64,000 nucleotides of DNA from the NCBI GenBank assembly GCA_016858145.1, contig JAEHOE010000044.1:64501-128500 (forward strand), in the 5' to 3' direction. Positions 15,776-57,510 of the stretch are shown in pieces (the stretch's first letter is position 1; each line of letters begins with the position of its first letter). A model generated the notes under the pieces. That model saw only the letters and a list, made by a program, of their open reading frames with translations. It was not told where the DNA came from and did not search any database. The position numbers were made by a program, and so were the translations under genes. This stretch comes from Edaphochlamys debaryana (taxonomy: Eukaryota; Chlorophyta; Chlorophyceae; Chlamydomonadales).

Positions 15776-17060
15776 CCTCCGCGCCGGGCCCGGCGGCGCC
15801 CAGGTCCTCGCCGCCCCACGGTGCCGGCTCCCGCCCCGGCCCCGGGCGGGCTGTGAGCATGCGCAGTGTGGCGTAGAGCGGCCCGAACTCATCGGGCGGC
15901 TGCACCCTGGGGGGGGGGGGGGAGGGGGGCATGGAGGAGGAAGGCTGGATGGGGAGGGGGGCAGAGGAGGGGGGAGGGCTGATGGTGATTGGGGTGGGAG
16001 GGTGTGCCTTGTGACTGCTGAGGTACGTGCCCCCACAGCAACCAGTAGTCACGCTCCCACCCTGCCTGCTTCCGCCCCGCCCTCAACCCTGCCGTACGGC
16101 TCACCTGCCGTACAGGATGTCGTCGATGGTGACTGCGTCGCCGTACACCGCCCGGTTGTGGCGCTGGTCGGGGTGCAGCGCGCCGCCTGGGGGGGGGGGG
16201 GGGAGGTAGAGGGCGGGGATGAGTGGGTTGGTCTGACGCTCGAGGTGCGACCGGGTACCTGACCGGTCAGGCCCTGAGTGGAGGCGGCCCTGTGTGTGGT
16301 CGGTACCCCGATGCAGCCAGTCCTCCAGCCAGCAGCACACCCTTCCCCGCCCACCCGCCCACCCGCCCACCCACCCACCCCCTCAGGCCCCACCCACCCA
16401 CCCCCTCAGGCCCCACCCACCAAGCGGGGAGAGGTCGATGAGTGCCCCCTTGTGCAGCGTGTAGGTGGACAGGGAGGCGCGGGCGGGGGCGGAGGGGGGG
16501 GCGGGGGGGGGCGGAGGGGGGGCCGTGCGCCTCGAGGGGCCCCGCGGGCTCGGGCGCCGCGCCCCAGTGCGTGTGCGCCCCTCCGCCCCCCTCGGCCCCC
16601 GCCGTGGGCTGCTGCGGCAGCAGGGGGCCGGGGGGCAGGGGGGCCAGGGAGGGGGCCAGGGAGGGGGAGACGCCGCCCAGGGCCCCGGACAGGGGGGAGC
16701 CGGTGCCGCCGCCCTGACAGGGAGGGAGGGGAGGGGTGGGGGAACGAGAGGGGAGGGGGGAGGGAAGGCGGGATACGTGAGGATGTACTCAAGCCTGCAA
16801 AGGTCCAAAACACCTTCTGTTTGGGTCTGTCTGACGGCGGCAGGGCCCGCCCGGCGCCCCCTCAGCCCCCCACCCAACCCCACCCCACCCAGGCCCCACC
16901 CACCCACCAGGGCCCCGCCGGTGCCGCCCACCCCCCCAAGGTCCAGGGGGGGTCCGCCCACGTTGCCGGCCGCGGGGTCGCCCGAGGAGTCCTCGGCGTC
17001 AGCCCTCTTGGGGGGTTGAGGGGGCGGAAGAGGGGGAAGGGGAGGGGTTGGGCGCAAGGG

Positions 17061-27800: not shown

Positions 27801-30800
27801 CGAGGGTAGCGAGGCGCCGGGCGGCAGGCGCAGCAGCGCCGCCAAGTCCACCCCCAGCAGGCGGGGCGAGGGCACGCCAAAGAGCAGGCCGGCGGGGCGG
27901 ACCTGCTCCTCGGCCAGGGAGGTGATGCGGCCGCGGGCGTCCAGCTCCACAACACCCGTCAGCCCCTGCGCCGCCCACAGCTCTGCGTGGATGAGCAGCG
28001 ACCCGGGGGTCATGCCGGGGGGGCGGGCGCGGCCGCGGGGGACAACCACGTCCAGCTGGGGGGGATGGGAGGGGGGGGGCGGGAGGGGAGGGGTGTTTGG
28101 TTGAGATTAGGGGGCAAAGGGGTGGAGATCGTGCGGGCGCAGGGGGCTGCCAGTGTCCCGGCTCCTTGCGCCAACCCGGGCCCTAACAGCCCACATCCCT
28201 ACTCACCCGCAGCACGGCGGACCGAGTGAGGGAGGCAATGTGCGCTGCTGCGCGCCTCTCGTTGCCCATTGCAGCGGCCTCGGAGGCGGCGGTGGGGGGC
28301 ACCACGGTGACGCGCCATGACATGCCGGGATTCTGCAGGGCGCTGCAGGGGCGGGAGGGAGGGGGACAGACGGGGAGGAGAGGGTTGATCTCCGCTGTGC
28401 AGTTGTTTACCTGGGCCTAACTGACTGTCACACTGATGGAGAGGGCATGCGCCTTGACCCATGACCTACTTTTCCCCCCTTCCCCTTCCTCACTAGGTGA
28501 CCATGGCATCGAAGGTGCGCATGTTGAAGGCACCCCCGGGCAGACCGCCCGAGGGGGGCCGGGCGCTGGCCTCCGCCTCCAGCCCTTCCGCGACAGGGCC
28601 GGGGCCCAGCGTCAGAGTGGCGTGGCCCTGCGCCTCCGGCATGGCCGGCAGCGGCACGGCCCCAGCTGGGCCCGCTTGGGCCTGCAGCGGCAGGGCGTCC
28701 TCGTCCAGGTCCGCACCGCCCACTCCAAACACCGCTGACGCCGCCTCGTCCAGGAGGTCGCCCCCGCCCGAGGTCAGGATCTGGTGGTTTGGGAGGGGGG
28801 GATTGAGGCAGCAGGCGTTGTAGTTGACTGATGATCATATACCGGCAGATCAACGCAAATGCGTGCCCCCGGGCCATCCCACCCCACCTGGGCGTGGCTG
28901 GCGGTCCGCTTGGTGCTGGTGGCTCCCGGCCCGTCCAGCCCCGCGGGGGAGCGCAGGGCAGCGGCGCCGAGGGCCGCGGCCGCGGGGGGCGGCACTAGGC
29001 GCGGGCGGGGGCCGGTGGCCGAGGCGCGGCCGCCCTGCTCGGCCCCGTCCAGGGGTCCCAGGTCGGCCTCTGGGTTGGCCTGCAGCGTCACAAAGTCCCA
29101 CAGCCGGCAGCCCACCAGCTGCAGGAGTGCAGCCGAGAAGAGGGGAGGGGAAAGAAGGAGGAGAACAAGGCCTTTTTCAGTCTGTAAGTCTGTAAGTCTG
29201 AAAGCCAGTACTCCCCACCCCCAGCCAACCTGACATGGAAGCCCCGAACCAAGCATCCCCCCACCCCCTCACCTCCTTGGACGTGAAGCCAAAGAGCGAT
29301 TCGAGCTGGGCGCCCAGGCTGTCGACGGCGGCGGCCTTGTCGGCAGCGGCGTTGGCGGCGGCCTCAGCAGAGGCGGTGGTGGGGCGCGAGCCCTCCAGCT
29401 TGAGCATCCCCTCCTTGCCGCCCTCCTCCTCGGGCCCCTCCTGCACCGTGCCGCTCTCAGACAGGCGCACGCGGATGCAGCGCTCAGCCACAGCAGTCTC
29501 CAGGGAGGACCTGGGGAGGAGTGCAAAAGGGTGTGGAAGCGTTTCAGCCTCATCCCCCGATCCAGCAGCCTGGCACGGACCTGACAGCTCCCCAAAGCCC
29601 TGTTCCTCCACCCCTTCCCCTCCACCCCGTACCTGGCCATGCGAACCACGTAGACGCTGTCGCCCCCCTCCTCCCGCGTGTTGACCGCCACCCGCACGTA
29701 CACGGGCTGGCCGCCCTGCCCCACCAGGCGCATGGTGGGGCGCAGGGGGGCGGACCCGGGCACAGGCGCAGAGCCGGCCGTGCCAGCGCCCCCCGCCAGG
29801 GGGCCCAGCGCCGCCAGGCCGCCGCCAGCGCCCCCGGGGGTGGCGTCGTCGGGGCGGCAGCCCCAGATGCCCGACAGCAGCGCCTGGGGGGCGGAGCCCT
29901 GGAGGGGGAAGGGGTGGCGGAGGAGCGCTGCTCGCAAAAGGCCAAGGTGAAGGAGGGCGGGAGTGGGAAGCACCAAGCCCCCCCCAAAGCCCACCCCCCA
30001 CCTTGGGCACGCCTGCCAGAATCTTGGCGTGCAGGTGCTTCCAGGGTGCGGGCAGGAAGTCGTCCAGAGAGCGCTGCGCAGAGTCCGAGTTGAGCTCAAG
30101 CATCACCTGGGGTGGTGGGGTCGGGGGGAAACAGGGAGGGGGGGGGAGTATGTTCACGCGGATGCACACACACGTGCTTTGCCAGATGGTTGACCTCTTC
30201 ATTCATCACCTCCTGTCCACTAGCAGTCAGTCGTTGTCAGTCACATGCTGACTGCAGGTATTGCTGTCCCCCAGCATTGCACGCACCTGGTCGTCCGCAC
30301 GGATGTCGGAGGAGGCCACCCCGAGCAGCTGGAGGGGGTGGACGAGCAGAGGGTGGCAGGTGTAAGAAGACAACGGCGAAGAGACACACAGCAGACAGCC
30401 CCCTCCCCACCCCACTCACCTTGCTCAGGTCCCCGCTCATGTGGCGGATGGCCCCCCGCTTCTCCACCACCATGAGCAGCTGCGGCTCATCACTGAGCAG
30501 CTGCATGCGGAACTCGAAGATGGAGCGAGACTTGTCTGGGGGAGGGGGGAAGGGGGAGGGGGGGCGGGAGGGGAGCAGGCAGGAATGGGTACAATGTCAG
30601 ACAAACGCCCCCCCTGGACGGCAGTGGCCCCCTGGACGGCAAAGGCCACACCAAGCCTGTCGACTGCTCCCAGACCCAAACCAGCGACATCGCCCAACCC
30701 CCCCCCGCCCCCCGCCCCCCGCCTCACCAATGCCAACACTCATGGTCACCTCCCGGGCGGCGTCGTACTTGTGCCGTACGAAACAGCGGGAGCCGGTGGT

Positions 30801-33800
30801 GGAGGGCGTGGCGGAGCCATCGGCGGAGACTGCCTGGGCCTTTTCCACCAGCCTGGGAGAGGGAGGGAGGGTGAGCTTGAAGTGTCAGAGCTGGAAATCT
30901 GCGTTTGTAAGTGGGAATAAAGTTGCCCCCCCAAAAGTTAGTCTGCGCGCAGATCCCCCAACCCCCACCCTCCACACCATAGCCCTCCCCCACCTCTGCA
31001 CCAGCTTCTGCGAGTCGCTCAGCGCCCTGCTGGCCGCCCAGCCATCCGCCTCCACCGCCCCCGCCTCGCCGGCCGACGGCTTGAGTAGCGCGTGTAGCTG
31101 TGTGCCGATCACGTCCGAGGGGTACAGCCTGGGAGGGAAGGGTTGGGAGGGCGTTGTTTGGATATGAGCCATGTGAGAGGTAAGGAACGCTTGCTTGCGG
31201 CAAGGGACCAAGTGTAGAGCACAGAGGGTCAGTCGTACCCCCTTGACCCCTTACCCTCGACTCCTAACCCTCCCCAAACCCCCAGCTAGCCCCACCCGAA
31301 GCATGTGACGAAGCCAGCGTCGCAGCACACCACCACTCCGTCCGCCGTGGCCCACAGCCGCCCAACGCCCCGCTCCGTGGGCGTGGGCTCCAGAAGCCCG
31401 ATGAAGACAGAGTCCTCGCCCATGCCTTGGGGGGGAGAGGGGGGCAGGTCCGGTAGGATGAGGGAAGGTGTTGGCAAGTGTTGCAGCTGCCCGGCCGCAA
31501 ATTGAGGCGATACCGCTAGGTGTCCAGGATCACTTTGGGCCAGGTCTGGGGGCCGATCGCGCGATATGGCCAGGGTCGACTGGCCAATCCTCGACTGACA
31601 GCTGCGCGCACAAGCCGCGAATCCGCGCTCCAACTAACGCGTCGGCTTCTGTGCATTGCATTAGCGATTCTGGCATCGAGTTTAAGACGCGAACGTGGCT
31701 TTGGGCGCGGCCCATGGACGCATGTCCGCGACTTGCAACGCAGACGATATAAAATGATCGCAACAAGGAGTCGCATATGATGTCTCGTGAATCCGGGCAG
31801 GGGGTGGGTAGTTGTACGAGCTTGCGGAAGCTCATTTGTTGCATGCTCGCGTCTCAGGCCAAGACCCTGCTCTCGGGCACTTAGCAGTGACCTCATACGA
31901 ATTGCTGAGGCTAGAAAGCAAGAAAACGAGGTCGAGACAGCTACGACTATGTGTTAAGCGTGAGGAGATGGACCTACAGGGACCACTTGCCCGTCTCGGT
32001 GTGATGTCCGTTCAGGGCCCCGTTCAGGGCTCCACCGCGCCCCCACCCCATCCTACCCCCGCCACCCACCCGATGCCCTCGATATGGCCAACTGCACGGG
32101 GAAGGCCACCCTCTCGCGGTGGATGCCCAGCACCTGAGAGGGGCAGGCAGAGAGGAGTCAGACAATCCATATGCAGCTCCTCTTTGAGCGAGGATGGCCG
32201 CTTCGACCCCCTCCCACCATGTCCAGACCCGATCCCACCCCCAGCTCCACCCCGCCCCCACCGGCTGCCTGAACGTTGGCGCTGCCTCCGTGCCGGAGTC
32301 GATGTATCGCCGCAGGAGCCCGGGATGCCGCTTGGCGTCGTGGGGGGGCATCAGCAGTGTAACGTTCTTGCCATCCAGCTCGCCTGGGGGGGGGGGGGGG
32401 GGGAAGGGGCAGGGTGGAGGAAAGGAGAGGAGAGGAGGGAGAGGAGGGAGCGGCAGACACGCAAAGGGGGGTCGGGCAAGGAAACCGCTGTTGCCTCCTG
32501 CATTAGCTTCCGTTGGGCGAGTTGGGCCTGCCCCCCCAACCATGCCCACCCCCTCACCCTTGCGGTACCCAAACATGGCCATCAGCTTCTTGTTGACCAC
32601 CTGTCGGGGAGTGGGGGCGAGGGGGGGGGGCGGAGAGGGTCAGTGCTGGAGCCTTAGAGGGCGCGCGTGGGGCCCCAAGACTCCCACACGATAGTGGAGA
32701 TAGGTTGGTGGGTGCTTGCCCAGTAGAGCTTTCATTCTACTCCCTGCATCCACAACTTCCACAACTTCCCACCTGCCCTCCCTTCACTTATCAACCCCCT
32801 CCCCCCCCCCCAACCCCCTTGCCTGTATGTCCCCGAACGCGTTGACCACCAGCACGCCCTTGTCCACCTCGTCGATGCGGCCAATGGGGGTGCCTGGGGG
32901 CGGGCGAGGGGGAGGAGGGGAAGGTGAGGGACACGGCTAGAGGAAGAGGGAGGAGCGCCTGCACTCAGCTGCCCACCCCACAACACCGCAGCCCCCCATC
33001 GCCCCACCGTCCGGCAGCGCGGGCCCGTCTCCGTCGCTGTCCTTGTTGGTCTCAATGCGGTCCGCCAGCGCAGAGTACTCGGCGGCGCCCCAGGGGTCCT
33101 GCTTGATGGTGGCAAGGAAGCTGGGGGGGGGGGGGGGGCGGGGGTCAACAGGGGGCGGGGAGACTGAAGAATGGGGGCAAGCACACTCTCTCCCCTCCCC
33201 TCCCCCTGTGCTCACCGTGCGTACAGGCGCACCAGGCGGGGGGAGTTGCCGTACGTCTCCAGCACAGCCCGGTAGGCGGCCTCGGCCTGCGGGGTCAAGG
33301 GGCGGGTTGCGTTCGGTGCATGGACGGTGGGTTCTGCTCGGTTCTAGATCTTAGTGCTGCATTACGCCAGATCCAGACCGCATGCTCCCAATCCAGATCC
33401 CCATCCCACCTGCTTGACGCTGGTGTCGATCTCCTCCAGGGACTTGGAGAGGGAGCGGAAGGACACGTTGGAGGAGTAGCCCAGGATGCGCCTGGGGGGG
33501 GAGTCGGACGGGTTAATGAGGGGCTCTGATGGCAAGGGAAGGTAACAACCTGCAAGCTCCGCCCCCCCTCGCCCCCCATCACACCAGAAGCTGGCCATGG
33601 CCTGCAGCGCCTCCTTGTGGTGCCGCAGGACCATGCGCTGCTTGCGCTGGTACTCCACGTACCTGACAGGGGGGGAGGGGGGGAGAGGGGGGGGGCCAGG
33701 GGAGGGGGGAGAGCGTCGGACCGGGCCAAGCCACAGCGCCCAGCAACACAGCGACGGTCCTTGCCTCCAAAGCCCTCCTGATGCATTCCCCCTGCCCCCG

Positions 33801-36800
33801 CTCTCACCCCAGCAGGTCCATGCTGCCCCCCTTTCCCACGGTGCTGCTGGCCGCCTTCTGAGTGGCCTGCTGCCGCCGCACGAACAGCATGAAGCGGCAC
33901 AGCAGCGAGGGGTCCAGCTTGCGGGCGGCCTCGAGCTGCTTGCCCCCCGTCTGGCTGAAGCCCAGCACGTCCAGCAGGAAGTCCGCGTGCACCAGCCCCG
34001 CAAAGGCGGACTGGGGGAAGCGGGCAAGGCCGGCCTGGGGGGCGGGGGGGGGGGGGAGGGGGACCGGGGTTTAGGGAGGGGTTTAGGGATAGATCGGAGC
34101 ATCCCAACGGCGACCCCCATCCCCCCACCCTCTCCCACCTTGATGATGTCCTGCGCCCTCCCCACCGCTGCCTTGTCCAGCGTGTAGCGGTCGGCCCACA
34201 CGCGGGCGCAGCGGGCCGCCACCTCCACATCCCGGGGGTCCAGGAAGCCGTACACGTCCTAAGAGGGGTGGGTGAGGAAGAGGGGGTGAGCGGCAACGTG
34301 TGCCTAGCCACTTGGCACCCAGAATCCCCCGGGCCCCATGTCTCTCAAAGGCCCAGCCGGGTCCCTCCGGGCCCACCTGCGGCTTGATCTTCTCCGTGTC
34401 CGTAGTCCTGAAAGCCCTCAGCACCGCCCACGTGAACAGCCTCCGCCGCAGGTACGTGGCCAGCACCCCCGCGGCGAATGCGGGGCCCAGGCCCACCGCC
34501 AGCACGTTGGTGAGGGTGTGCCCCAGCGAGGGGGCGCAGAAGACCACCGCCACCTGCAGCCCCGCCACAAACACCATGGCCACCGCCACGCCCCCCTTGA
34601 GGTCGTTGACCCACCCCACCAGGTGGGGGACCTGACAGGGGGCAGACACAGGGGAGTGGGGAGGGGAGGGAAGAGTCAGCAAGTGTGCGGAAGTTGAAAC
34701 GACCGAAGGAAGCGGCACCAGGAGTGGAGCACGCCCCTCCCCCCCCTCCCCCCCAACCCCTGCCCCCCCCCTCACCCATCTCAGGTAGCACCAGGCCAGC
34801 CACAGGGTGAGCGCCAGGTAGGCCCCCGCCGCCACCTTGGGCCACCCCAGGAAGGTGGACACCAGGGTCATCAGGAACTGGGGGGAGGGGGACATGAGGG
34901 GATGAGGCAGAGCGTGGTAAGAGGGCTGTGGGGACGATGCACTCCCTTCCCCTCCCCCCCCTCCCCTCCCCTGCCCCCTGCCCTCCCCTCCCCTCCCCCC
35001 CCCCTACCTTGATGAAGAAGGACCACACCTCCGCTCCGCTGTGCCCTAGGGCCTGGGGGGAGCGGGAGGCGGGGTTCACCTCCACCTGGGGGGGAGGCGG
35101 GGGCAGCGCGTAAGATTGAGTTCAGTAATTCAAGGCCACTGAGCCCGCAGGGTCCCCCCGCCGTCCCCCCTCCCCCCTCCCCCCCCCACCTCGCTGAGGT
35201 TGACCAGCATGGCCACCAGCACGAACACGCCCAGCAGGATGCCCGACACGATGCACTGGGCCAGCTGGGGCATGGCGGAGCAGCCTGGGGGGCGAGGGGG
35301 GGAGGGGGGGGAGAGAGCTGAGCGGGACTGCGCGGATTGAGGGGAAGCAGGCGGAGAGCGGAGACGGGGCAGCGCGGCACGGGCCTCCCCTTCCCACCCC
35401 CTCCACCATCCCCCCCTCACTGTAGCTGGGGAATATGGCCATGTGCAGGCGGGGCCCTGCGTCGCCCGTGTAGTTGCAGCTGATGCCGAGCTGGGGGGCG
35501 GGGGAGAAGAGGGGGAGGGGGAGGAGTGGGTTCGGGTGGGGTAGGCGTGCTGCGACCCCTCGTCTTCCATCCACTCCGTCTGCATTCCGCGCGGGGTTGC
35601 CCCACGCTGTCGGGGCCCCGGGCGAGGCTCCCCTCACCGCATCTCCAAGGGACCTCCACTGAACTGGATGGCCCCCCACCCGCACCCCCCTCGCTCACCT
35701 GCAAGAAGTTGAGCGACGTCACGTCGAAAACCTGGATGAAGACGTACGAGAAGCCGCGGACCATCTTGATGGGCCACACATAGTCGAACTGGGGGGGGCG
35801 GGCCAAGGAGAGCCGAGGGGCAGTCAGGGCGGTGGGTTCGCTGAGGCGGGGGCAAACCCGCGGAGCCTGCGCCCCCATACCCCGATCCCGCTCCCTCTCC
35901 CCCCTCTCCCACCTTTTGCTGCTTGAATGACACTGCCACCCACACGCACAGCGCAATGTTGAGCGCCAGCAGCGCCGCCACGGCGTACAGCAGCCCCACG
36001 TACAGCCCGTAGCCAATGTCGCCCAGCCAGCCGAACGACAGCACACTCAGGCAGCGCCACCAGGTGCCCTGCGGGTTGATGTCCCAGCCGTACTCGGGCG
36101 TCAAGATCTGTACGAACAGCTGCCAGGCGTCGAGCAGGATCTGGGGGGAGGGGAAGGGGAGGAGAAGGGATGGGGGGAGCGGGGATGGGGGGTGAGAAGC
36201 AGGGGGCGGGGGTGGCGGGGACCCGCGGTTGATGCGTGGGGGTTGCGCCCCGCAGATGGCTCACCTTGATGATGATCCAGTGGTAGAAGATATGTTGCGT
36301 GTTCTTTTCTTGCGAGAGGGTGAACAGCACGCCGAACACGGCGCCCTCCAGGCCCGTGCGCTAGAGGGTGACAGGGAGGAGAGCGGAAGGCGAAGACTTC
36401 TCAGCGATACGCGCGTAAACGACGCGCGTAGAAGACGACAATTAGCGATCAGGGTGCCGCCGTCATCAGAACACGAACACGACAGACGAGCCCGTGACGC
36501 AACGAAGTTCCCGCCGCGCCCCGGCGACTGCCGTAAGCCTCTGCCATTGAGCCCGGTTATCATGCTTATCCGCAAGATTCTTGCAGGCGCCGTTTGGTGC
36601 ATCACGCTCGAAGGACAAGCAAGAGTTGGCATGCACGACTTCGGTTGCGTGATACCGCGGGTTCTAAGTGCCGATGTCGTCAAGGCGGCAGTCCAGCTCC
36701 TATGCAGTGCCCGGGCGTTGTATGGGCGGGGCCGTGACTGCTCGCCCGTGTTGCCACTGGTTTGGATGGCGGACTGGCACACACGGCCCCGCGCGGAGGC

Positions 36801-37059
36801 AACAACCGCGGCGCTGATGCCACCCAGTGACAGCCGAACGTACGCCTATCTTTTTGGGCGGGTCGCTGGCAGGTCTGCCAACAAGGCCGAACATGCGCGC
36901 GCCAGCCGACACATCCTTACCTGAACGATCTCGCCCCCGTCCTCTCCATCCTTCCCGTCTTTAGACTTGTCGTCTCTGCAGAGGCGGAGATGTGAAGAAG
37001 CTTTGACTGAACTTGGAACGGCGAGCGAATGGATACGTACCAAGGGTGCCGAACGCCAT
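18827..37059 (-). CDS. TmcB-like membrane/PAS-domain protein, copy B (complete, about 50 exons)
   Basis: A tiny first exon (37,041-37,059, MAFGTL plus one base) joins exon 2 (DDKSKDGKDGEDGG) using acceptor GCAGAG. The next exon gives RTGLEGAVFGVLFTLSQEK, typical of green-algal TmcB-like proteins. Several membrane helices follow (about residues 50-370), then a helical segment ending near 33,000 (QDPWGAAEYSALADRIE, as in this family). PAS domain 1 lies at about residues 597-715, with VLVVNAFGDIQVVNKK and GKNVTLLMP, and a second PAS follows to about residue 790. Further sensor-like exons and a long Gly/Pro/Ala-rich linker (27,215-26,490) precede the C-terminal half. There a membrane helix at 25,017-25,118 precedes a large non-cytosolic region, with further helices at 23,130-23,211, 21,540-21,600 and 19,470-19,573 (MHVVLFILLVVVFAVFVFAL). 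The tail ends NMNSPVKRA-like before a TAA at 18,827-18,829. All sampled exons stay open. The domain mix suggests a membrane-tethered sensor; the signal is unknown. Confidence 0.8.
31480..32030. other. Copy B-specific insertion in an intron of the TmcB-like gene
   Basis: The intron between the PAS exons is about 170 bp in copy A (9,217-9,383) but about 640 bp here. The extra half-kilobase has visibly lower GC than its surroundings, contains a TATAAAA near 31,748, and shows no open frame that I recognise. I could not find clear terminal repeats. It may be a degraded mobile element. Confidence 0.6.
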
Positions 37060-38548
37060 CAACCCCGCCCCCCCTTTTAGTCTCGTTGTTGCTTGCATTG
37101 CTTAGGGAGTAGGATGATTAGAACAACCCGTGGCTCCCCAGATGCCCGCTGCGCGCTGTGAAAACGGGCCGACTCGCCAAAAGTCGACACTCCGCCCGCT
37201 GCATTGTTACCTGATTTTTGGTAGCTCTGGTGCACCGCTCATGCCACTGGCGCTGCTCGCCACGCTCGGTGCGCCGGGCATTCTTCCTAACGCAACGCCG
37301 GCCGGCCCGCGATGGGCTCTGCTCTTTTGTTTACGACCGCTTGTCCAGCTTGCCTAGAGTCTCAGGTTGTTGTTAGGAGGTCAGCAGTCGCAGTCCGAGC
37401 GGCCAGAACGGAAGCGAAGCGAACTCAAAACAGTAGTTATGGTCGTTAGGGTGGTCCAGTTATGTGTGTTGCACCGCTCCGCTGCAGAGAGCGGCTATGA
37501 GAGCGACTCGATTGGCAGCCGAGCTTACATACGCCGTGCAGCTGCGGGCATACTCTGCGCCATCCACATGGCGTCCCGTGCGCCCCGCTATGGCTGTCGC
37601 GCGACCTGCAGCGACTGGACTTCGCGCACTCGGGTAACTCTATTCGCTCATAGATCCTGCATTGCTCATAATGCCGATGTTACTGGTGTGTGACGCCAGC
37701 CTTAGTTGTTGGTGCATGAGGGCGGGCAGCCGGTGGTCCCGTGCCCGCGCACATGAAGTGTTCGCAGTTCAAACTGCGCGCGGCGATGGACGTATAATAG
37801 GTAGTCAGCGCATTATACACGTTTCTGGCGCAGCCGCAGACATTGGCAAATGCGGTTGCGTGAGCGTTCGCGCGCTGGCGCACCGCAGTTAGACAGCCGC
37901 CGAAGCCGGTCCAGTTCGCGGTGACTGACCGCCGCAGGGTCGGTCCAGTGCACCTCGGGCAGGCCCCCGCCCGGCGCCTAACCCGGGCCCCACAACCCGC
38001 CGGCGCCATCGGCCGCCTCCCCAAACAAGCAAGCCGTCGCCCGCACGCTCCGCGCATCTCCACGAAACTCCAGCTTGCAGCGGGCGGTCGGGTTGTGCCG
38101 GGGGCGCCCCATAGCCCCAGTCCCTGCCCCAGCCCCGGCACTTGAATTGGCACTCAAGGATATCGTTCGCCAGGCGGTCCCAGCGGAAGGTGTCATCAGA
38201 CAATACGAACCAGAAACAGGCCAACACCAAACGCCCACAGAAGCCCTTGCTCCCTGGCCGCACAACATGGAAGGCTGGGAGCGGAGTCGTGCCGCCCGGC
38301 AGGCGGGTCAAACGGCTGCGGTTCCCGCCCCTCGTGCTCGTGAGGACCCCTCTACGGTCTAGCCGCAATCACCACACCCTCATCTGGCGGGGGGTACCCC
38401 GCTGGGAGGGGCCTCCTGCTGCTGCCCCGCCACCCTCCCAGGCCTCTACCCACCGGACTCCCGGTGCGTGCCCGCCAACCCGACCGGCCTCAGCGCACGC
38501 CACCCCATGCCGCCGCCGCCCTGCCGCCACCCGGTGCCGGCGGCTGCC
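37060..38548. promoter_or_regulatory. Spacer upstream of TmcB-like copy B
   Basis: Intergenic region between the SYLF stop (38,549) and the TmcB-like start (37,059), both on the minus strand. The first 350 bp next to the start align with copy A and are the likely promoter/5' untranslated region. The rest is non-coding as far as I can see. Confidence 0.4.
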
Positions 38549-41500
38549 TCACAGCGCCGCCATGGGCCGACCCCAGCCGCCCAGCGGCAGCGTCGGGGCG
38601 GCGTGCGGCCGCGTGGGCCCCTTCCCTTCCGCCCCTGCCTCCGCCGCCTCCGCGCCGGGCCCGGCGGCGCCCAGGTCTTCGCCGCCCCCCAGTGCCGGCT
38701 CCCGCCCCGGCCCCGGGCGGGCTGTGAGCATGCGCAGTGTGGCGTAGAGCGGCCCGAACTCCTCGGGCGGCTGCACCCTGGGGGTGGAGGGGGGGTGGAG
38801 GGGGGAGGTCGGATGGGGAGGGGGCAGAGGAGGGGGGAGGACTGCTGATGACTAAGATGCGAGACGTGCAGTGCGCCGGTGGGATCCACAGCAACCAGTG
38901 ACGCTCCCACCCTGCCTGCTTCCGCCCCGCCCTCAACCCTGCCGTACGGCTCACCTGCCGTACAGGATGTCGTCGATGGTGACTGCGTCGCCGTACACCG
39001 CCCGGTTGTGGCGCTGGTCGGGGTGCAGCGCGCCGCCTGGGTAGGGGGGGAGGGGGGAGGATAAGGGCAGGAGAGGGAGGGGACGAGCGGGTTGGTCTGA
39101 CGCTCGAGGCGCGACCGGGTACCTGACCGGTCAGGCCCTGAGGGGAGGCGGCCCTGTGTGTGGTCGGTACCCCGATGCAGCCAGCCCTCCAGCCAGCGCC
39201 AACCCGCCGCAGGCCCCACCCCCTCAGGCCCCACTCATCCCCTCAGGCCCCACCCGCCCACCCGCCCACCCACCCAGCAGGGAGAGGTCGATGAGTGCCC
39301 CCTCGTGCAGCGTGTAGGTGGACAGGGAGGCGCGGGCGGGGGCGGGGGGGGCGGAGGGGGCGGAGGGGGGGCCGTGCGCCTCGAGAGGGCCCGCGGGCTC
39401 GGGCGCCGCGCCCCAGTGCGTGTGCGCCCCGCCTCCGCCCCCCTCGGCCCCCGCCGTGGGCTGCTGCGGCAGCAGGGGGCCGGGGGGCAGGGGGGCCAGG
39501 GAGGGGGCCAGGGAGGGGGAGACGCCGCCCAGGGCCCCGGACAGGGGGGAGCCGGTGCCGCCGCCCTGACAGGGAGGGAGGGGAGGGAGGGCGGAACGAG
39601 AGGGGAGGGGGGAGGAAAGGCAGGATACGTGAGGATGTGTGTTCAGGGCTGCTCGTGTAAAGGCCAGGGAAAGCGTAGACGCGGTAATTAGCCGGCCGGT
39701 CGTAGATACGGAACCGAAAGCCCTGGGAGTCCGAAGCCCGTGTGTGTGCGAGCGACCTACTCGAGCCTGCAAAGGTCCAGGACATCTTCTGTAATCTGGG
39801 CTCAGGTCCCTCCGCCTGTTTGGGTCTGTCTTCACCCGCCTATCATAGCGGCAGGGGGCCCTCCCGGCCCCCACCAAGCCCCCCACCCGCCCCACCCACC
39901 CCACCCACCAGGGCCCCGCCGGTGCCGCCCAACCCCCCAAGGCCCAGGGGGGGTCCGCCCACGTTGCCGGCCGCGGGGTCGCCCGAGGAGTCCTCGGCGT
40001 CAGCCCTCTGGGGGGGAGAGGGGGAAGGGGAGAGGGGGAAGGGGAGGCGAGGGGCCAACTTTGCAGTCGGAGAATGGCGGGGAGATTCGTGAAGGATGGG
40101 CGAAGCGGACTCTCCCCTTGCCCCCTTCCCCCGTCAGCCCCGTCGAGCCGCACCTAGCCTCCTACGGTCCCTCGGCCCTAACCCCACGCACTGGCCAGCG
40201 GCGGGGCCCGGGCATCAGCAGTGCAAGCAGCACCACTACCCCGCCCCCTCCCTCTCACGCCCTGTCACCCCCCCTCCCCCCCCCCCCCCTCACCCGCCCC
40301 ATCATGACGTGCACGTCCGTCCCCAGCACCGCCCGCCCCCCCCTGACGGCGGCCAGGGCGGGGGGATCCCACAGCACCAGCACCGAGTGGGTGTGCTCCA
40401 GGCCTTGGGGGGGCAGGGGCGGGGAGGGGGGAGGGGGTAGGTGTGTGAGAAAGCTGGGGAAGGGCCCCTCAGCAACGGTCCCCCTTCCCACTGGGCACTT
40501 TTCTGAGGCCCTGCAAGCCGGTACCCACCTATCTCCCCCTTCCTCACCCTGGCGACCCTTCGCCTGTTCCCCGTTCTCCCCCCACCCCTGTAGTACCACC
40601 AGCTCCTCCCCGCAGGCCCCCACTGAGACTGCGTGGTGCTCTGAAGCCCGCCCCCGCACCGACCTACTTCTGAGCCCCATATCTCAAATGCCCCTCCCCT
40701 CCTGTCCCTCCCACCCCCACCCCCCCTCACCAAGCGTCAGTCCCACGCTGAGGGAGTCGATGGAGTAGAAGGCGGGGGCGGACCAGCGGAGGAGCGGCAC
40801 GGGGGGGCGGGGGCGGGGGCGGGGGCGGGGGCGGGGGGCTCCCTGGGGGCCAGAGGCCACCAGAGGGCTCACGCCGCCGCCCCAGCCGCCGCCCCAGCTG
40901 CCCCCGCCCCCGTCCACCCCCTCCTCCAGACGCTCCAGACCCGTGCCCGCGGCCGCGGACGCAGCGGCAGAGGCGAGAGGGCTGCGCGGGGGCGTGAGGG
41001 GACCTGGGTGCCGTGCGGATCCGGATCTGGATCGCAAGTCATCGCTGCTGCTGCCGTACTCGGTGCTGATCTTGTTGATCAAGAATCCAGTGCCGTGGCT
41101 GTACGACAGTCCCAGGCCGGCCTTGGTGGTACGCATGAACATGAGGGCCTGGGGAGGGGCAGGAGGGGGGGGGGAAGTGAGTGGCGTGAAATGGGGGAGA
41201 GTGAAGTCAAACGAATGAAGGGCGGGTAAACACACGTTGCATGTCATGGGGGCAATAAAGCAGCTGCATCTGACGCTGGTCACGAGGGCGAGAGCCTGGG
41301 TCCAGCATGCAGTGCCCCGTGCCCCTGCCCCTTGCTCAGGAGGGAGCCTCCCCCGCCACGAGCCTCCACCCCACCCCAATCCCCCCCCCCTCCAGCACCC
41401 CTCCCCCCACCTGGCAGCTCTGCAGGGCGGACACGGGCAGGAGACCCGCGGGCTGGCCCATGCGGTCCTGGGGGGGGGGGGGGATGAGGGAGAGGGGGAT

Positions 41501-52068: not shown

Positions 52069-53042
52069 ATGTCTTCTTTGAGGACCGCCGCCATCGCACC
52101 TTTGCGAGGAGCCGCGGGGCCGCGGTCTCTTCCTGCCAAGGACCCTCGGCCATGTGGTGCTGCGTCGAGGCCAATTACTGGTGAGTCTTTTGCGGGGCGG
52201 GGCGGCGCGCGAGCGGAGCACCTGCTGCATGTCGGCGAGCCGCGGCCCGCAGCACAATTTCGAGGATGATGAGCTCTATTGTCGCCCCAGTCCGAGGTCC
52301 CTTTAGCCGGGGACATCTATGCGGATTGACCGACGCAGTGCGTCTCTGACTCTCATTCATTCATGCTGCACACTGCACATGCGCACGGCGGCGGCCCGCT
52401 AGCCAAGCCCCAAGCGCCATGGTGATGACACACTTACTCAGCTCACTCGGAGTCTGATGACGACACACTGTTCCAACACTTTGCTGAATGCGCGCCCGGC
52501 GCCGCCGCCGCCACACCCCATCGCACCCACCCGCATTCTGCATCACCCTGGCCGACTCCCTTGGGAAGGAGGACACTTTCCCCGACTGATCGAAGTTGAA
52601 GCAGCGAACTAATTCTAACTAGGGCCTTCGGGTCCGTCAAGCCAGATTAACTGACCCTTGTGGAAGGAGCCAGGGAATGCACGCGCACTGCTTTGCCTCG
52701 CCCGAGCTTAGGGGGGATTGATGATTTGAAACCTTTCGGTCCGTGTTTCTGACTGCGCATCGCGCAATTGACGAGACCGGTTTCTCTGTCTGACCCCTAG
52801 CCGTGCCCTAGTTCCTGATTGCCTTCCATCCTCGAGCCCTTCCTTGACCTCCCGCCCCCCTCGCAACCCCTCGCCCCGCAGGCACTCGTCTACCCCGCCG
52901 ACGTGCCCCCGTTCACGTTGACGCCAGCGGCAACCGAGACCCTCCGTCGCCTCCATGTGCCGACAAGCTCGACCCTCAAGCACCCCGTCCTCGTGGCCCC
53001 GCTCACCTTCGACGTGGTCGGGCCATGGGCTTCGTCGCTCAG
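52069..53042 (+). CDS. Possible snoRNA host gene, two exons seen, incomplete model
   Basis: Exon 52,069-52,180 opens with ATG (MSSLRTAAIAPLRGAAGPRS), looks like a transit peptide, and ends at a clean GTGAGT donor. A second exon at 52,882-53,042 is flanked by CCCCGCAG and GTATGG and reads LVYPADVPPFTLTPAATETL, then RRLHVPTSSTLKHPVLVAPL in one frame. G or C fills about 85% of third codon positions in that frame against about 58% in the neighbouring frame. The phases of the two exons do not match, so at least one exon between or after them is missing from this model. snoRNA candidates lie in the intervals that would be introns. I do not recognise the protein. Confidence 0.35.
52262..52352 (+). 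ncRNA. Box C/D snoRNA, predicted 25S rRNA guide
   Basis: Box C GATGA at 52,268-52,272 and box D CTGA at 52,346-52,349 are bracketed by GAG/CTC pairing with the 3-nt bulge of a kink-turn. Upstream of a CCGA box D' (52,292-52,295), bases 52,280-52,291 can pair with the conserved 25S segment ACTGGGGCGGCA (12 pairs, one G-U). The stretch before box D folds on itself (GACGC/GCGTC), so only D' may guide. Confidence 0.5.
52414..52494 (+). ncRNA. Box C/D snoRNA candidate, target not identified
   Basis: Box C GTGATGA at 52,422-52,428, internal CTGA at 52,454-52,457 (overlapping a TGATGA box C'), box D CTGA at 52,484-52,487. The ends pair as CAT/ATG extended by GCG/CGC past one bulged C. I could not match either guide stretch to conserved rRNA. 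Confidence 0.45.
52712..52798 (+). ncRNA. Box C/D snoRNA, predicted 25S rRNA guide
   Basis: Terminal stem GGGGG (52,712-52,716) with CCCCT (52,794-52,798), kink-turn bulge ATT, box C GATGA (52,720-52,724), box D CTGA (52,790-52,793), box D' CTGA (52,749-52,752). The 11 bases before box D' complement 25S AAACACGGACC, with the fifth pair on the A of ACAC. That is a methylated region in many eukaryotes. Confidence 0.65.
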
Positions 53043-53116
53043 GTATGGGAGTGGGAGTGAGAATCGAGTCACAACGCATTCGTTCGGGCCCTGCACGTCT
53101 CCCGCTTCCGAAACTC

Positions 53117-53208
53117 ACGCGGTGATGATACCAATCAGATTCGGACTAGAGTTTCCGAGGGCCTCGGCCTGTTGACGAACTCACTGATTCCCTTGGCTGT
53201 CTGAGCGT
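53117..53208 (+). ncRNA. Box C/D snoRNA with two neighbouring 25S rRNA guides
   Basis: Terminal stem ACGC/GCGT (53,117-53,120 and 53,205-53,208), box C GTGATGA (53,122-53,128), box D' CCGA (53,155-53,158), box D CTGA (53,201-53,204). Bases 53,188-53,200, flush against box D, complement 25S ACAGCCAAGGGAA (13 pairs). Bases 53,141-53,152, before box D', complement 25S ACTCTAGTCCGA (12 pairs). The two rRNA sites lie close together in the 3' part of 25S. Confidence 0.8.
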
Positions 53209-53269
53209 TCTATGCGTCTGCGCCACACGTAGCTAGCACGCACAATAGGGAGGGGCACTGTCCGGGCAA

Positions 53270-53327
53270 GGCTTCTAATCAGTTGGTCCCGCGGCTATCA
53301 GTGTCGCGGGGCCCGTTCCCAGAAGCC
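53270..53327 (+). ncRNA. Stable hairpin, possible H/ACA-type snoRNA arm
   Basis: GGCTTCT (53,270-53,276) pairs perfectly with AGAAGCC (53,321-53,327). Inside, CCCGCG (53,288-53,293) pairs with CGCGGG (53,305-53,310), leaving an internal loop of the size of a pseudouridylation pocket. No convincing H box or ACA box partner was found. Confidence 0.3.
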
Positions 53328-53357
53328 ATATTGCCGGTTGCAAAGGTTTGATCGACC

Positions 53358-53432
53358 CTGCAGCTGATGATGGTGCTCGCTATCCTATCCCCTTACCTGG
53401 TTGGGGGCTAGGACGATTGCTCCCAGACATAT
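53358..53432 (+). ncRNA. Degenerate copy of the kink-turn RNA family
   Basis: GATGA at 53,366-53,370, a C-rich/G-rich hairpin followed by CTAGG as in element 2, and an ending CCAGACATATCT in place of CTGAGCCATCT. Hairpin P3 and the terminal pairing are lost. It is followed by the GCATTGCACTGCACGCAC spacer motif that also follows element 1. Confidence 0.35.
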
Positions 53433-53642
53433 CTCCACTGGGCTTGGGTCGGGTACGGCATTGCACTGCACGCACTGTAGCCCGCTGCTTGACGGTCAGG
53501 CGCTGGGGCCACACGTCCCCTTTGCCTAACATATTACTGGCAGCCACAGTACTGGGCTGGTATCGCTGGCCGTCTGTGGCTAGCCCCCCGTCACTGGCAA
53601 CTGCGGTATCGGCCTGCACATCTCTCGCCCTGCAAACATCTA

Positions 53643-53725
53643 GCGCGATGATGATAACTTTAGAGGCTGTTTATGATCACAATGATTATAACCAACCAAA
53701 ACGACTTCTCCTTACTCTGACGCGC
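53643..53725 (+). ncRNA. Box C/D snoRNA, predicted 18S rRNA guide
   Basis: Perfect terminal stem GCGCG (53,643-53,647) with CGCGC (53,721-53,725), box C ATGATGA (53,648-53,654), box D CTGA (53,717-53,720). Bases 53,701-53,713 complement the universally conserved 18S 3'-end segment AAGGAGAAGTCGT (13 pairs). The rule of five places the 2'-O-methyl group on the second A of that segment. Confidence 0.75.
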
Positions 53726-53795
53726 ACTACTTATGCACGCACCCGCACGCTTGCTTGCACGCGGCGACGCCACCGAGGCGCGCTCTCGCAAACCC

Positions 53796-53875
53796 TGGCA
53801 ATGAAGAGACCCGTGTCCGGGGCATTCCTGACCCCAACCACCCACTTGTGTGGGAAGGGACCCTTGTCTGAGCCA
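53796..53875 (+). ncRNA. Kink-turn RNA element 1
   Basis: P1 TGGC/GCCA; GAAGA (53,803-53,807) faces CTGA (53,868-53,871), so the usual U-U of the kink-turn is A-U here. P2 GTCC/GGAC (53,815-53,818, 53,858-53,861); P3 GGGG/CCCC around loop CATTCCTGA; P4 CCCAC/GTGGG with loop TTGT. Confidence 0.75.
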
Positions 53876-53945
53876 TCTATACCGCGCCTCGGCTGGCTAT
53901 CGCATTGCACTGCACGCACCCACTCGATCCTCTCATTGCTCGGGC

Positions 53946-54024
53946 TGGCTGTGATGATGCGTTGCCGGGGGAGTTCCTGTCCCCCACGGCCCCACTGTTG
54001 GGGACTAGGCGCCTTTCTGAGCCA
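53946..54024 (+). ncRNA. Kink-turn RNA element 2
   Basis: P1 TGGC/GCCA; GATGA 53,953-53,957 with CTGA 54,017-54,020. P2 GCC/GGC plus a U-G; P3 GGGGG/CCCCC (53,967-53,971, 53,981-53,985) with loop AGTTCCTGT; P4 CCCCA/TGGGG with loop CTGT. Confidence 0.75.
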
Positions 54025-54082
54025 TCTGGGTTGTTCCCTGCATTCGCACGCATGGCACTGCACGCCGGCACCACCTTACCTC

Positions 54083-54162
54083 TGGCCTTGATGAGGACCC
54101 GGCTGGGGGAATTCCTGTCCCCAACCTCACCTTCCTTGGTGAAGCAGCCCGTCTCTGAGCCA
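54083..54162 (+). ncRNA. Kink-turn RNA element 3
   Basis: P1 TGGC/GCCA; GATGA 54,090-54,094 with CTGA 54,155-54,158. P2 GGCT/AGCC (54,101-54,104, 54,146-54,149); P3 GGGG/CCCC with loop AATTCCTGT; P4 TCACC/GGTGA (54,127-54,131, 54,138-54,142). Confidence 0.75.
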
Positions 54163-54236
54163 TCCTAGTCCGGTTGCAGTTGCAAATGCTCACAACAAGC
54201 ACCCACGCCATGCACACTACGTGTCGTGACACGCTC

Positions 54237-54315
54237 AGGCCTTGATGACATGGTCCGCGGGCTTTCCTGATCCGCACCTCACCCGTCTGGGTGACGTTTG
54301 ACCTCTGCTGAGCCT
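54237..54315 (+). ncRNA. Kink-turn RNA element 4
   Basis: P1 AGGC/GCCT, a compensated outer pair; GATGA 54,244-54,248 with CTGA 54,308-54,311. P2 GGTC/GACC (54,252-54,255, 54,300-54,303); P3 GCGGG/TCCGC closed by G-U with loop CTTTCCTGA; P4 TCACCC/GGGTGA with loop GTCT. Confidence 0.78.
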
Positions 54316-54358
54316 TGAATTGTCTAGACTTGCACAAGTGCATCGACCGCTAAAACTC

Positions 54359-54934
54359 TGGCCATGACGAAACACACCGCACTGGGGCTTTCCTGGTCCC
54401 ACTTCCCTGCTTGTCGGGGACGCGCGGTTTCGGAGCCATCCTCGGTTTCCCTTCCTCCCTTGCACCTGTCTCCCACTCCTCCTGGCCATGACGAAACACA
54501 CCGCACTGGGGCTTTCCTGGCCCCACTTCCCTGCTTGTCGGGGACGCGCGGTTTCGGAGCCATCCTCGGTTTCCCTTGCTCCCTTGCACCTGTCTCCCAC
54601 TCCTCCTGGCCATGACGAAACACACCGCACTGGGGCTTTCCTGGCCCCACTTCCCTGCTTGTCGGGGACGCGCGGTTTCGGAGCCATCCTCGGTTTCCCT
54701 TGCTCCCTTGCACCTGTCTCCCACTCCTCCTGGCCATGACGAAACACACCGCACTGGGGCTTTCCTGGCCCCACTTCCCCGCTTGTCGGGGACGCGCGGT
54801 TTCGGAGCCATCCTCGGTTTCCCTTGCTCCCTTGCACCTGTCTCCCACTCCTCCTGGCCATGACGAAACACACCGCACTGGGGCTTTCCTGGCCCCACTT
54901 CCCCGCTTGTCGGGGACGCGCGGTTTCGGAGCCA
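54359..54934 (+). repeat. Kink-turn RNA elements 5-9 as a 124-bp tandem repeat
   Basis: Five nearly identical 80-nt elements (54,359-54,438, 54,483-54,562, 54,607-54,686, 54,731-54,810, 54,855-54,934) repeat with an exact 124-bp period including the spacer. All five carry GACGA facing CGGA, which turns the kink-turn U-U into C-G. P1 TGGC/GCCA; P2 CCGC/GCGG; P3 GGGG/CCCC (TCCC in the first unit, giving a G-U) with loop CTTTCCTGG; P4 TCCCTG/CGGGGA in units 5-7 and TCCCCG/CGGGGA in units 8-9, a wobble replaced by a Watson-Crick pair. Confidence 0.85.
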
Positions 54935-54954
54935 TATCTGTGTGTCGTCTTTGC

Positions 54955-55034
54955 TGGCTGTGATGAGGTCTGTGCGCGTGGGCTTTCCTGACCCTCATCT
55001 CGTCGCTCTCGGCGATTGCGCTGTCTCTGAGCCA
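54955..55034 (+). ncRNA. Kink-turn RNA element 10
   Basis: P1 TGGC/GCCA; GATGA 54,962-54,966 with CTGA 55,027-55,030. P2 GCGC/GCGC; P3 GGG/CCC with loop CTTTCCTGA; P4 TCGTCG/CGGCGA (55,000-55,005, 55,010-55,015) with one U-G and loop CTCT. Confidence 0.78.
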
Positions 55035-55096
55035 TGCTGGTGGTGTAGCATCCTCTCTGCGGTCGGGCGTTGTCTTGTCGAATGATCTGGTTGGGC

Positions 55097-55175
55097 TGGC
55101 GTTGATGAAATGCGCAGGGGGCATTCCTGACCCCCACAACCCTTGTTTGAGGGAGCGTTGCGCGTGTCTGAGCCA
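55097..55175 (+). ncRNA. Kink-turn RNA element 11
   Basis: P1 TGGC/GCCA; GATGA 55,104-55,108 with CTGA 55,168-55,171. P2 ATGCGC/GCGCGT with one U-G (55,110-55,115, 55,160-55,165); P3 GGGGG/CCCCC with loop CATTCCTGA; P4 CCCTT/GAGGG with loop GTTT. Confidence 0.78.
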
Positions 55176-55198
55176 TCTCTATACTGAACTGTTCGCGT

Positions 55199-55277
55199 GG
55201 GCGTTGATGAGTAATGTGCGCCGGGGCTTTCCTGACCCCTCCTACCCTAGTCTTGGGGATTGCGCCCTGCTGAGCCC
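55199..55277 (+). ncRNA. Kink-turn RNA element 12
   Basis: P1 GGGC/GCCC, a compensated outer pair; GATGA 55,206-55,210 with CTGA 55,270-55,273. P2 GCGC/GCGC; P3 GGGG/CCCC (55,223-55,226, 55,236-55,239) with loop CTTTCCTGA; P4 CCCTA/TGGGG with loop GTCT. Confidence 0.78.
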
Positions 55278-55306
55278 TTCTATGTGAGTTTTGTTCCGTC
55301 GTGTGT

Positions 55307-55385
55307 CGGCGCTGATGAAGCTTTGCGCGAGGGCATTCCTGACCCTCACGACTCCCGCCTGGGGGATTGCGCTAGCTCTGAGCCG
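55307..55385 (+). ncRNA. Kink-turn RNA element 13
   Basis: P1 CGGC/GCCG, a compensated outer pair, with a further GT/AC step outside; GATGA 55,314-55,318 with CTGA 55,378-55,381. P2 GCGC/GCGC with AGC/GCT continuing to the kink-turn; P3 GAGGG/CCCTC with loop CATTCCTGA; P4 TCCC/GGGA. Confidence 0.78.
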
Positions 55386-55432
55386 CGACGAGTGTCTTGT
55401 GCATGCACGTCTGCACGCCTCCTCTGGCCGCC

Positions 55433-55593
55433 TGCCGATGATGAAGCACGCCAACACGTGACACGCTGTGGCGGATCCGGGCGCCTGCTCTGCAGGAACG
55501 AACCTACCCGGTGAACCCACGCAGCCTGCGGCGCGCCTCGGCGCCCGCGGGTGGCTCTGTGCACACGGTGCAGCTCTGCTGCGGTCTGAGGCA
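55433..55593 (+). ncRNA. Possible long box C/D RNA
   Basis: TGCC (55,433-55,436), a 3-nt bulge and GATGA (55,440-55,444) face CTGA (55,586-55,589) followed by GGCA, giving the same kink-turn geometry. The 161-nt interval is long and no guide could be matched, so chance is possible. Confidence 0.3.
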
Positions 55594-55634
55594 CGGCATC
55601 CACGCATCCACCCCCACTTCTCACATCACTCACT

Positions 55635-55760
55635 GGCCGATGATGATAGTTCCAAATAGGGCTTCTCTCAGAACACCATTCGCAGGGCCCGTCTAGAGCT
55701 TTCGCCTTTCGCCGGGCTTGAGAGCTGTTGCGGCGTTTCCTTCCTTGGATGTCCGAGGCC
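55635..55760 (+). ncRNA. U14: U14 box C/D snoRNA
   Basis: 126 nt, the usual U14 size. Terminal stem GGCC/GGCC with the kink-turn bulge, box C ATGATGA (55,640-55,646), box D CCGA (55,753-55,756) in place of CTGA. Domain B, bases 55,739-55,752 flush with box D, complements 18S ACATCCAAGGAAGG (14 pairs), the hallmark U14 site for 18S methylation. Domain A, bases 55,676-55,685, complements 18S CTGCGAATGG, the pairing needed for 18S processing in yeast. Confidence 0.88.
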
Positions 55761-56224
55761 TATCCTTCCGATCATGCACGCACACACCTTCGCAAGACTG
55801 GTTGTGGATGATGACAACACACCAGAGCAATCTCACGACGGTCTTCATTGCGGCACCTTCGGGGGCCTTGCTGATAGCCTGGTATAAATTTCTGACACGC
55901 CGTCTTGCACACTGCACCTCTGTCTTCTCCGCTACCCGGTGTTTCTCAACACCCTCATCTCTGGATGGGTTGTATGGGCGGGATTCTCGGGCAGGTTGGC
56001 TGGCTGGCGGAGGATGGCTGTGGATCAGCAAGGTTGTGGCTTGTGGCAGTTGTGGGGCAGGGCCCTGCTCCCTGCCTTCCCCTGGCGAGTCTGCGGCTGT
56101 CCGCAGTGCAGAGCCCCACCGTGCCGCTGCTGCTGCAAACTAAGAAGTGGATACTGCATGATGGGCCTTGGCCTTTGTGAGCTGCCGCCGCCCTCTGCTG
56201 CATCGCCCGCGCACACCGCTGTGC
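55761..56224. other. Spacer after U14
   Basis: No gene is supported. A GGATGATGAC at 55,806 and GCTGATAG at 55,872 resemble boxes C and D, but the flanks do not pair and the guide matches no rRNA that I know. Confidence 0.4.
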
Positions 56225-56232
56225 GGTGCCAG

Positions 56233-56769
56233 CAGCGTTGCTATCTTCCCTGGGCCGAAGTGCGGGAGGTCCCGCACTCGGACCTCGGGTCCAAGCCCAA
56301 GAGTGCGAAAGCGGGCCGCACTTGGCAAGTGCTTGCCGCCCAGAAGTGCGGGAGAGTGCGGTGGAGTGTAGCGGAGGGCGCGGCGTTCTGGAGGCCTGTT
56401 TCAAGCGGATGAGTCTGCCTGGCTCTCGCCCTAGTGCATGAGCTGATGTAGGCGGGCAACTGGGGGTCTTGAATTCCAGCAGCAACCCCGTAGTGTATGC
56501 TGCAAGTGCATGTGATGCGGGCTGGACGGTGGGGGTGGGAAGGGGACTGCCTGCCCGGCTGGCCGCGCCCGTTCGGTGGGCCCCCCAGGGGTTGAGGGGC
56601 CCCCGCACCTGAGCCGCCAGAAGGCTCAAAAATGTGCCGGCGCGGGCCGCACTCGCAACCAAACTTTGCTACAAAAGTGCGGGAGCTTCCGCACATGAGG
56701 CTCTTTCCGTCACCGAAAGTGCGGGATGGCCTCACTCCCCCGCACTTCCGCACTAAGATAGCAACACTG
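56233..56769. mobile_element. hAT-like non-autonomous DNA transposon (MITE), 537 bp
   Basis: Terminal inverted repeats CAGCGTTGCTATCTT (56,233-56,247) and AAGATAGCAACACTG (56,755-56,769) match at 14 of 15 positions. They are flanked by an exact 8-bp direct repeat GGTGCCAG at 56,225-56,232 and 56,770-56,777. An 8-bp target duplication with ends starting CAG is the hAT pattern. The subterminal regions carry many copies of AGTGCGGG or its complement in both orientations, as expected for hAT transposase binding sites. No transposase frame is present. Confidence 0.85.
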
Positions 56770-56777
56770 GGTGCCAG

Positions 56778-57510
56778 GTGGCTGAGCGCTGCATGGCCTT
56801 GGCCTGGCCCACCGGCCCCCTCCGCTCCTGCAGCGGCTCCGGGGCGTGCCAGGCTGCCAGCGGCCCACTGCTACCTGACTGCATCGCGCATCCAAGCCGT
56901 CCGGCGTGCAGCTGCCGGAGGCCCCACGCCTTGTCCACCCTGCCTCGCGAAGTCGCGATGCGCCCTACCGTCACTGGCTTACAGGTCCGAACGCGCGGGG
57001 GTCTCACGAGTCTAGATGCCCTCATTGCCCCGCCTCATGGCCCGCAAGACCCTGTCGGCAATACGCAGGCGCCCCGGCCCCTGGACCACGCTCGTACCGG
57101 TACCACACAAGTGCTCCACGCGAGGCCTAGTGCTCTACACCCTGCCCTCGTGCCCTCCCTCCTCACCCCCTCCTGGCCGTGGACCCGCACCGCCCCCCCT
57201 CGCCGCACGCTGCAGCCGAACCCCTCCTGGCCCCACCATCTAGACCCGCAGGCCACAGCTCACGGATCCCCGCCCCCCAGCGCACGCCCCCGTCCAGCTC
57301 AGTGCGCTGACCGGCACAGCACCGCTGGGGCGCGGCCCACAACCCGCGCCCCCTCACGTCACCCCCCTTCCGTACGCCAAGTCCGCTGCCGGCGCTCGTC
57401 TCCGGTCCGCGCGCACGTTCGCACACTGCAGCCGAGGCCCTCCTGGCCGCCACTCGTATGGCTCCACCCCCCACCGCAGCTGCCCCCTCCTGCCCCCAGC
57501 CTCCGCGCCC
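56778..57510. other. 3' flank of the CaMKII association-domain gene
   Basis: C-rich sequence with a few loosely repeated CTCCTGGCC and CACGCTGCAGCCGA-like tracts (57,170-57,450). No supported gene; presumably the 3' untranslated region of the minus-strand gene ending at 57,511. Confidence 0.35.

Follow-up and report, generated by a model that had tools for sequence, protein, structure and literature searches.

A 64,000-nucleotide (nt) stretch of DNA from the green alga Edaphochlamys debaryana (assembly GCA_016858145.1, contig JAEHOE010000044.1, positions 64,501 to 128,500 of the forward strand), referred to as the window, was analysed, and this report concerns an array of short repeated RNA-like units located at window positions 53796-55385. 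The array consists of 13 units of 79-80 nt each, all on the + strand, and sits among predicted box C/D small nucleolar RNA (snoRNA) genes of the same strand. A covariance model, R1, was built from nine of the 13 units; units 5, 7, 8 and 9 were omitted as near-copies of unit 6. R1 recovered every unit at 63.1-83.4 bits, while the runner-up scored 14.8 bits in the whole window and 15.1 bits when R1 was run unfiltered over 52500-57000. The number, length and place of the units, as described in a first-pass annotation of this DNA, are therefore confirmed. The units and their R1 scores are unit 1 at 53796..53875 (83.3 bits), unit 2 at 53946..54024 (77.2 bits), unit 3 at 54083..54162 (79.7 bits), unit 4 at 54237..54315 (75.0 bits), unit 5 at 54359..54438 (63.1 bits), unit 6 at 54483..54562 (66.4 bits), unit 7 at 54607..54686 (66.4 bits, identical to unit 6), unit 8 at 54731..54810 (68.3 bits), unit 9 at 54855..54934 (68.3 bits, identical to unit 8), unit 10 at 54955..55034 (79.1 bits), unit 11 at 55097..55175 (83.4 bits), unit 12 at 55199..55277 (71.1 bits) and unit 13 at 55307..55385 (80.8 bits). 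Adjacent units are separated by spacers of 20-74 nt. The units fall into nine sequence types with mutual identity of 54-74%, and units 5 to 9 make up a near-exact 124-base-pair (bp) tandem repeat, opened by unit 5 (Tandem Repeats Finder, 54358-54935).

When the entire array was used as a DNA query against its own genome, the array itself was the sole match. A motif pattern found 22 places in the genome, seven of them inside the array, and its reversed control found five. Outside the array, R1 gave at most 19.1 bits over the 15 remaining pattern places, 30 of the 873 places found by a looser pattern and six further loci; these searches were partial, as patterns pass over diverged copies. A dispersed repeat was rejected within the searches made, given that the array query matched only itself and R1 did not exceed 19.1 bits elsewhere. 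A pattern of the motif that fits six of the 13 units had no match among viral contigs, bacterial genomes or archaeal genomes, where algae are not expected.

The fold put forward in the first-pass annotation comprises a terminal stem, P1 (NGGC/GCCN), a kink-turn, a second helix, P2, and a three-way junction with helices P3 and P4. RNAalifold recovered P1 to P4 without guidance, with a consensus energy of -19.26 kcal/mol, of which -1.42 is the covariation share. None of 500 tree-preserving null alignments was as low (mean -1.45, standard deviation 1.52), nor was any of 500 column shuffles. In a structure-blind MAFFT alignment, 88.8% of the cells in the proposed pairs are paired and 11 of the 21 pairs show two-sided changes; no shuffle out of 500 matched this alignment in any of five measures. 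The alignment fitted to the model, with all 13 units (11 distinct), has 90.0% of the cells paired and again two-sided changes in 11 of 21 pairs, a count equalled by one of 500 shuffles. When the partner strand was shifted by 1-3 columns, pairing fell to 37-52% in both alignments. These results bear out the earlier claims that the units share this fold and that the helices are kept while their letters change. That annotation had also listed only the kink-turn, the NGGC/GCCN frame and the TTCCTG loop as fixed, which is nearly correct; the six bases UUCCUG of the P3 loop are invariant, but so are the inner G-C pairs of P3, the outer C-G pair of P4 and the final U of the P4 loop. The P2 strand that precedes box D has a column identity of 0.39 and covaries with its inner partner, and 81.8% of its cells are paired in the model-fitted alignment, which is a prediction and not a probing result. 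The single-stranded joints from box C or D to P2 measure 3-7 nt, depending on the unit. Columns 30 and 38, which close a loop (C.A in six types, A-U in two, C-G in one), resemble covariation without being significant (E 12). Taken together, the comparisons among the units argue for a well-supported structured RNA family, in which the fold, with its covarying helices, appears to be under selection.

The kink-turn links the units to box C/D RNAs. One strand reads as a bulged N-N-U-GA-N-GA and the opposite strand as C-N-GA; the GA of box C and the GA of box D are invariant. The terminal stem is paired in all 11 distinct rows and closes the kink-turn, with its three-nucleotide bulge and tandem G.A pairs. 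Unit 2 has box C GUGAUGA and box D CUGA, unit 1 has the box C variant UGAAGA with box D CUGA, and units 5 to 9 have box C UGACGA, with the kink-turn partner altered too (GTGATGA, TGAAGA and TGACGA at the DNA level). Seven types have U.U at position 3b.3n, unit 1 has A-U and units 5 to 9 have C-G. PMC5061560 states that the kink-turns of U4 and of box C/D RNAs, according to their 3b.3n sequence, fold only with the help of the 15.5K protein. The 3b.3n types of the units are thus consistent with a site maintained for a 15.5K-family protein. The P3 loop contains a D'-like CUG(A/U/G), and no C' box was recognised by eye in the units. The NGGC/GCCN stem and the C/D frame are shared by a C/D RNA from another cluster of the same genome. 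As far as sequence goes, the kink-turn of the units is the C/D terminal motif.

No Rfam 15 family was found on the array, either at gathering scores or at E values up to 5, which agrees, as far as Rfam goes, with the earlier view that the RNA is apparently undescribed. A transfer RNA or other Rfam RNA was rejected. Two further candidates were considered and rejected. Selenocysteine insertion sequence (SECIS) elements have an AUGA/GA core and an unpaired apical AA (or CC); the P3 and P4 loops do not have such an AA, and there is no Rfam match. In hammerhead ribozymes a three-way junction is surrounded by a core of CUGAUGA ... GAAA; the junction of the units has no GAAA strand, and again there is no Rfam match.

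On the same strand, the array is preceded by a C/D-like RNA recognised by eye (52419..52496), a box C/D snoRNA with boxes C, D', C' and D (52713..52797), and matches to Rfam RF00333 (53113..53209, 37.3 bits, E 2.3e-5, gathering score 55) and RF00350 (53642..53726, 22.6 bits, E 0.77, gathering score 50). It is followed by a C/D-like RNA (55433..55592, about 160 nt; GATGATGA ... CTGAGGC) that has long inner hairpins and no Rfam match and was identified by sequence and fold, by the U14 (SNORD14) snoRNA (55635..55760; RF00016, 51.3 bits, E 3.5e-9, gathering score 64) and by a probable further C/D RNA with boxes recognised by eye (55803..55899; R1 6.7 bits, not significant). Each of the Rfam matches beside the array falls under its gathering score. 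A second U14-like gene is present in a different C/D cluster of the genome (C48:154675-154800). Within the cluster, 53400-53632 combines a large hairpin with boxes resembling ANANNA and ACA, and may be an H/ACA snoRNA, as judged by eye and from one folding. The segment 52881-53041, between two snoRNAs, looks by eye like an exon: its borders resemble splice sites and its third positions are rich in GC. It may belong to a host transcript. Pfam had no family for the 54-amino-acid (aa) exon-like stretch ahead of the array or for a 270-aa open frame across the array start. Elsewhere in the window, a segment of about 17 kb is duplicated in direct order (positions 1-17000 and 22400-40000, at an offset of about 22-23 kb), with eight blocks of more than 800 bp at 77-98% identity. 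An open frame at 59855-60865 matches the E. debaryana protein HYH03_009158 with 100% identity across the 271-aa query.

The C/D kink-turn, the C/D neighbours on the same strand and the matching frame elsewhere in the genome make the units better called a C/D snoRNA family. We propose, with a probability of about one half, that they are an unusual and apparently non-guide family, i.e., a fixed-loop RNA-protein particle rather than a methylation guide; the non-guide role itself is likely. The units would be cut out of one precursor, as would their neighbours. The 15.5K/Snu13 protein would then fold the kink-turn and recruit Nop56, Nop58 and fibrillarin, and P2 and the junction would fix the position of the P3 loop. 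UUCCUG may pair with an RNA that carries CAGGAA or may bind a protein, most plausibly during ribosome assembly. The high copy number would serve dosage, with the copies free to drift provided that fold and loop persist. More tentatively, a C/D lineage may have given up guiding and become a scaffold with a riboswitch-like junction, which shows UUCCUG to a single conserved partner from 13 diverged copies.

The most serious competitor, which we nevertheless consider unlikely, is that the units are ordinary diverse methylation guides whose fold opens at the target, each copy or type guiding its own site. Boxes C and D and the terminal stem are present, and the neighbours are guide-like by their boxes, one of them with a 14-nt duplex. 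The 18 nt preceding box D and the D'-like CUG were paired against the species' own partial ribosomal DNA (rDNA), U6 and stray eukaryotic ribosomal RNA (rRNA), with 10 units covering all nine types (20 flanks) and 40 shuffles each. The own rRNA covers small subunit (SSU) model positions 721-1831, 5.8S and large subunit (LSU) positions 1-840; the rest was represented by gapped proxies from other eukaryotes, and SSU before position 285 and much of LSU beyond about position 2340 are poorly covered. Against this partial target set, the longest duplex of any unit flank was 10 nt with one G-U (unit 12 D'), and all others were of 9 nt or less. DNA queries recovered own rDNA from a single contig of 2.5 kb (C287), which holds the 3' part of 18S, internal transcribed spacer 1 (ITS1), 5.8S, ITS2 and the 5' part of 28S and departs from conserved rRNA at several points. 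Eukaryotic rRNA also occurs within records labelled as bacterial metagenome-assembled genomes or viral contigs (L063, L064, L065, L066, L067). The strand before D argues further against guides: it is poorly conserved and covaries with its inner P2 partner, whereas a target would conserve a guide, and a guide has no need of such a partner. Moreover, the C' box is unrecognisable by eye, and P3 sequesters the D' site.

The first-pass annotation set the units apart from the guide snoRNAs because their would-be guide regions are paired. The pairing of the strand before D stands, but a place outside the snoRNAs is not supported, in view of the C/D kink-turn and the C/D setting. A structured RNA that merely uses a kink-turn would account for the missing Rfam match and for a three-way junction unlike the standard guide layout. 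Such an RNA is quite improbable, given that box C and box D sequences from opposite ends make up the kink-turn, that C/D genes lie on both sides of the array and that a C/D RNA from a different cluster has the same end frame. Less probable still is that the array is neutral or decaying repeat DNA, or that it belongs to a repeat coding for protein on the minus strand. Units 5 to 9 are indeed recent, near-identical tandem copies, and a 378-aa minus-strand frame is open across most of the array; drift without selection, however, does not preserve paired helices, and a period of 124 bp is not divisible by three, so that successive copies fall into different frames. Least probable is a C/D guide that directs something other than methylation, such as acetylation in the manner of U13/snR45, or that is otherwise bipartite: PMC5464676 describes such C/D snoRNAs as lacking a known methylation target and having a helical region that varies, but places the known guide parts, of 5-15 nt, near the RNA ends, whereas the joints of the units are short and variable, in the course of an analysis that made no dedicated two-part search.

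Several observations weigh against a non-guide C/D snoRNA family with a selected fold. The strict box C, RUGAUGA, is present in two of the 13 units and UGAUGA in seven; box D is CUGA in eight and CGGA in units 5 to 9. The covariation test envisaged in the first-pass annotation was run in a home-made, R-scape-like form on nine rows and gave a divided answer: three of the 21 proposed pairs, one each in P2, P3 and P4, reached E<0.05, and a scan of all pairs with the same test had no significant pair. This weak outcome is attributed to the little power that nine rows give. Single-sequence folding produced the four helices in seven of nine types, with P2 displaced in unit 2 and unit 10 misfolded, and the folding energies of single units were modestly low (z -2.5 to +0.4). 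The array is known from one locus in one species. In the guide test, two unit flanks were nominally low, unit 12 D' (3 of 40 shuffles equal) and unit 3 D' (4 of 40). Among 11 neighbour flanks, four reached at least 11 nt, and the D' guide of the snoRNA at 52713 alone beat all shuffles (14 nt with one G-U to the own 28S, 0 of 40 equal). The other three, at 11 nt, were equalled by 1, 2 and 3 of 40 shuffles, these being the flank before D at 52419 (proxy LSU), the RF00350 match, and the flank before D at 55803 (one G-U, proxy LSU), respectively; seven flanks fell short. The test thus detects guides only in part, and with partial own rRNA and gapped proxies a guide in the units could be missed. 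The conservation argument is valid for the D side only, because the D' position lies inside the well-conserved P3. Finally, CAGGAA, the complement of UUCCUG, occurs at a single site of the 2.5-kb own rDNA, within ITS2, which is about the chance level; in the proxies it occurs once in one LSU and once in one SSU.

C/D snoRNAs are generally regarded as guides that act in single-stranded form. If the units are a non-guide C/D family, a guide strand locked in a covarying helix together with the UUCCUG loop would provide a natural test of C/D roles beyond methylation. Since the host is a relative of Chlamydomonas, expression, protein partners and the effect of loss are directly testable.

No published description of such an array was found among the titles and opening lines of abstracts compared, which did not include the C. 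reinhardtii snoRNA catalogue (Chen et al. 2008, Genetics). The U4 small nuclear RNA (snRNA) has a kink-turn whose 3b.3n makes folding dependent on 15.5K (PMC5061560, in excerpt); unlike U4, the units have no Sm site recognisable by eye and no Rfam U4 match. The orphan C/D snoRNAs of algae, CrCD72, CrCD74 and the O. tauri orphans (among 17), are likened to the units by description and not by sequence; in the available parts of PMC5122169 and PMC7671301 these RNAs have no predicted rRNA or snRNA target. Minimal C/D guides are dealt with in PMC6770171, also available in part. The snR4 and snR45/U13 RNAs are, according to PMC5464676, C/D snoRNAs whose middle is helical and for which no methylation target is known, but they are larger and carry two-part end guides; such pieces were not noticed in the units, in which no systematic search for them was made. 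U14 (SNORD14) is a C/D snoRNA of the same cluster, listed among the C/D RNAs that direct pre-rRNA cleavage (PMC7671301, in excerpt), whereas the units have no RF00016 match at E values up to 5. Compared with box C/D snoRNAs in general, the units differ in their conserved inner three-way junction, the paired strand before D, the lack of a convincing guide and the 13 copies of a single family in one array, but they resemble them in the terminal stem, the C/D kink-turn, the length of 80 nt and the clustering with C/D genes on one strand, as in plant and algal polycistrons.
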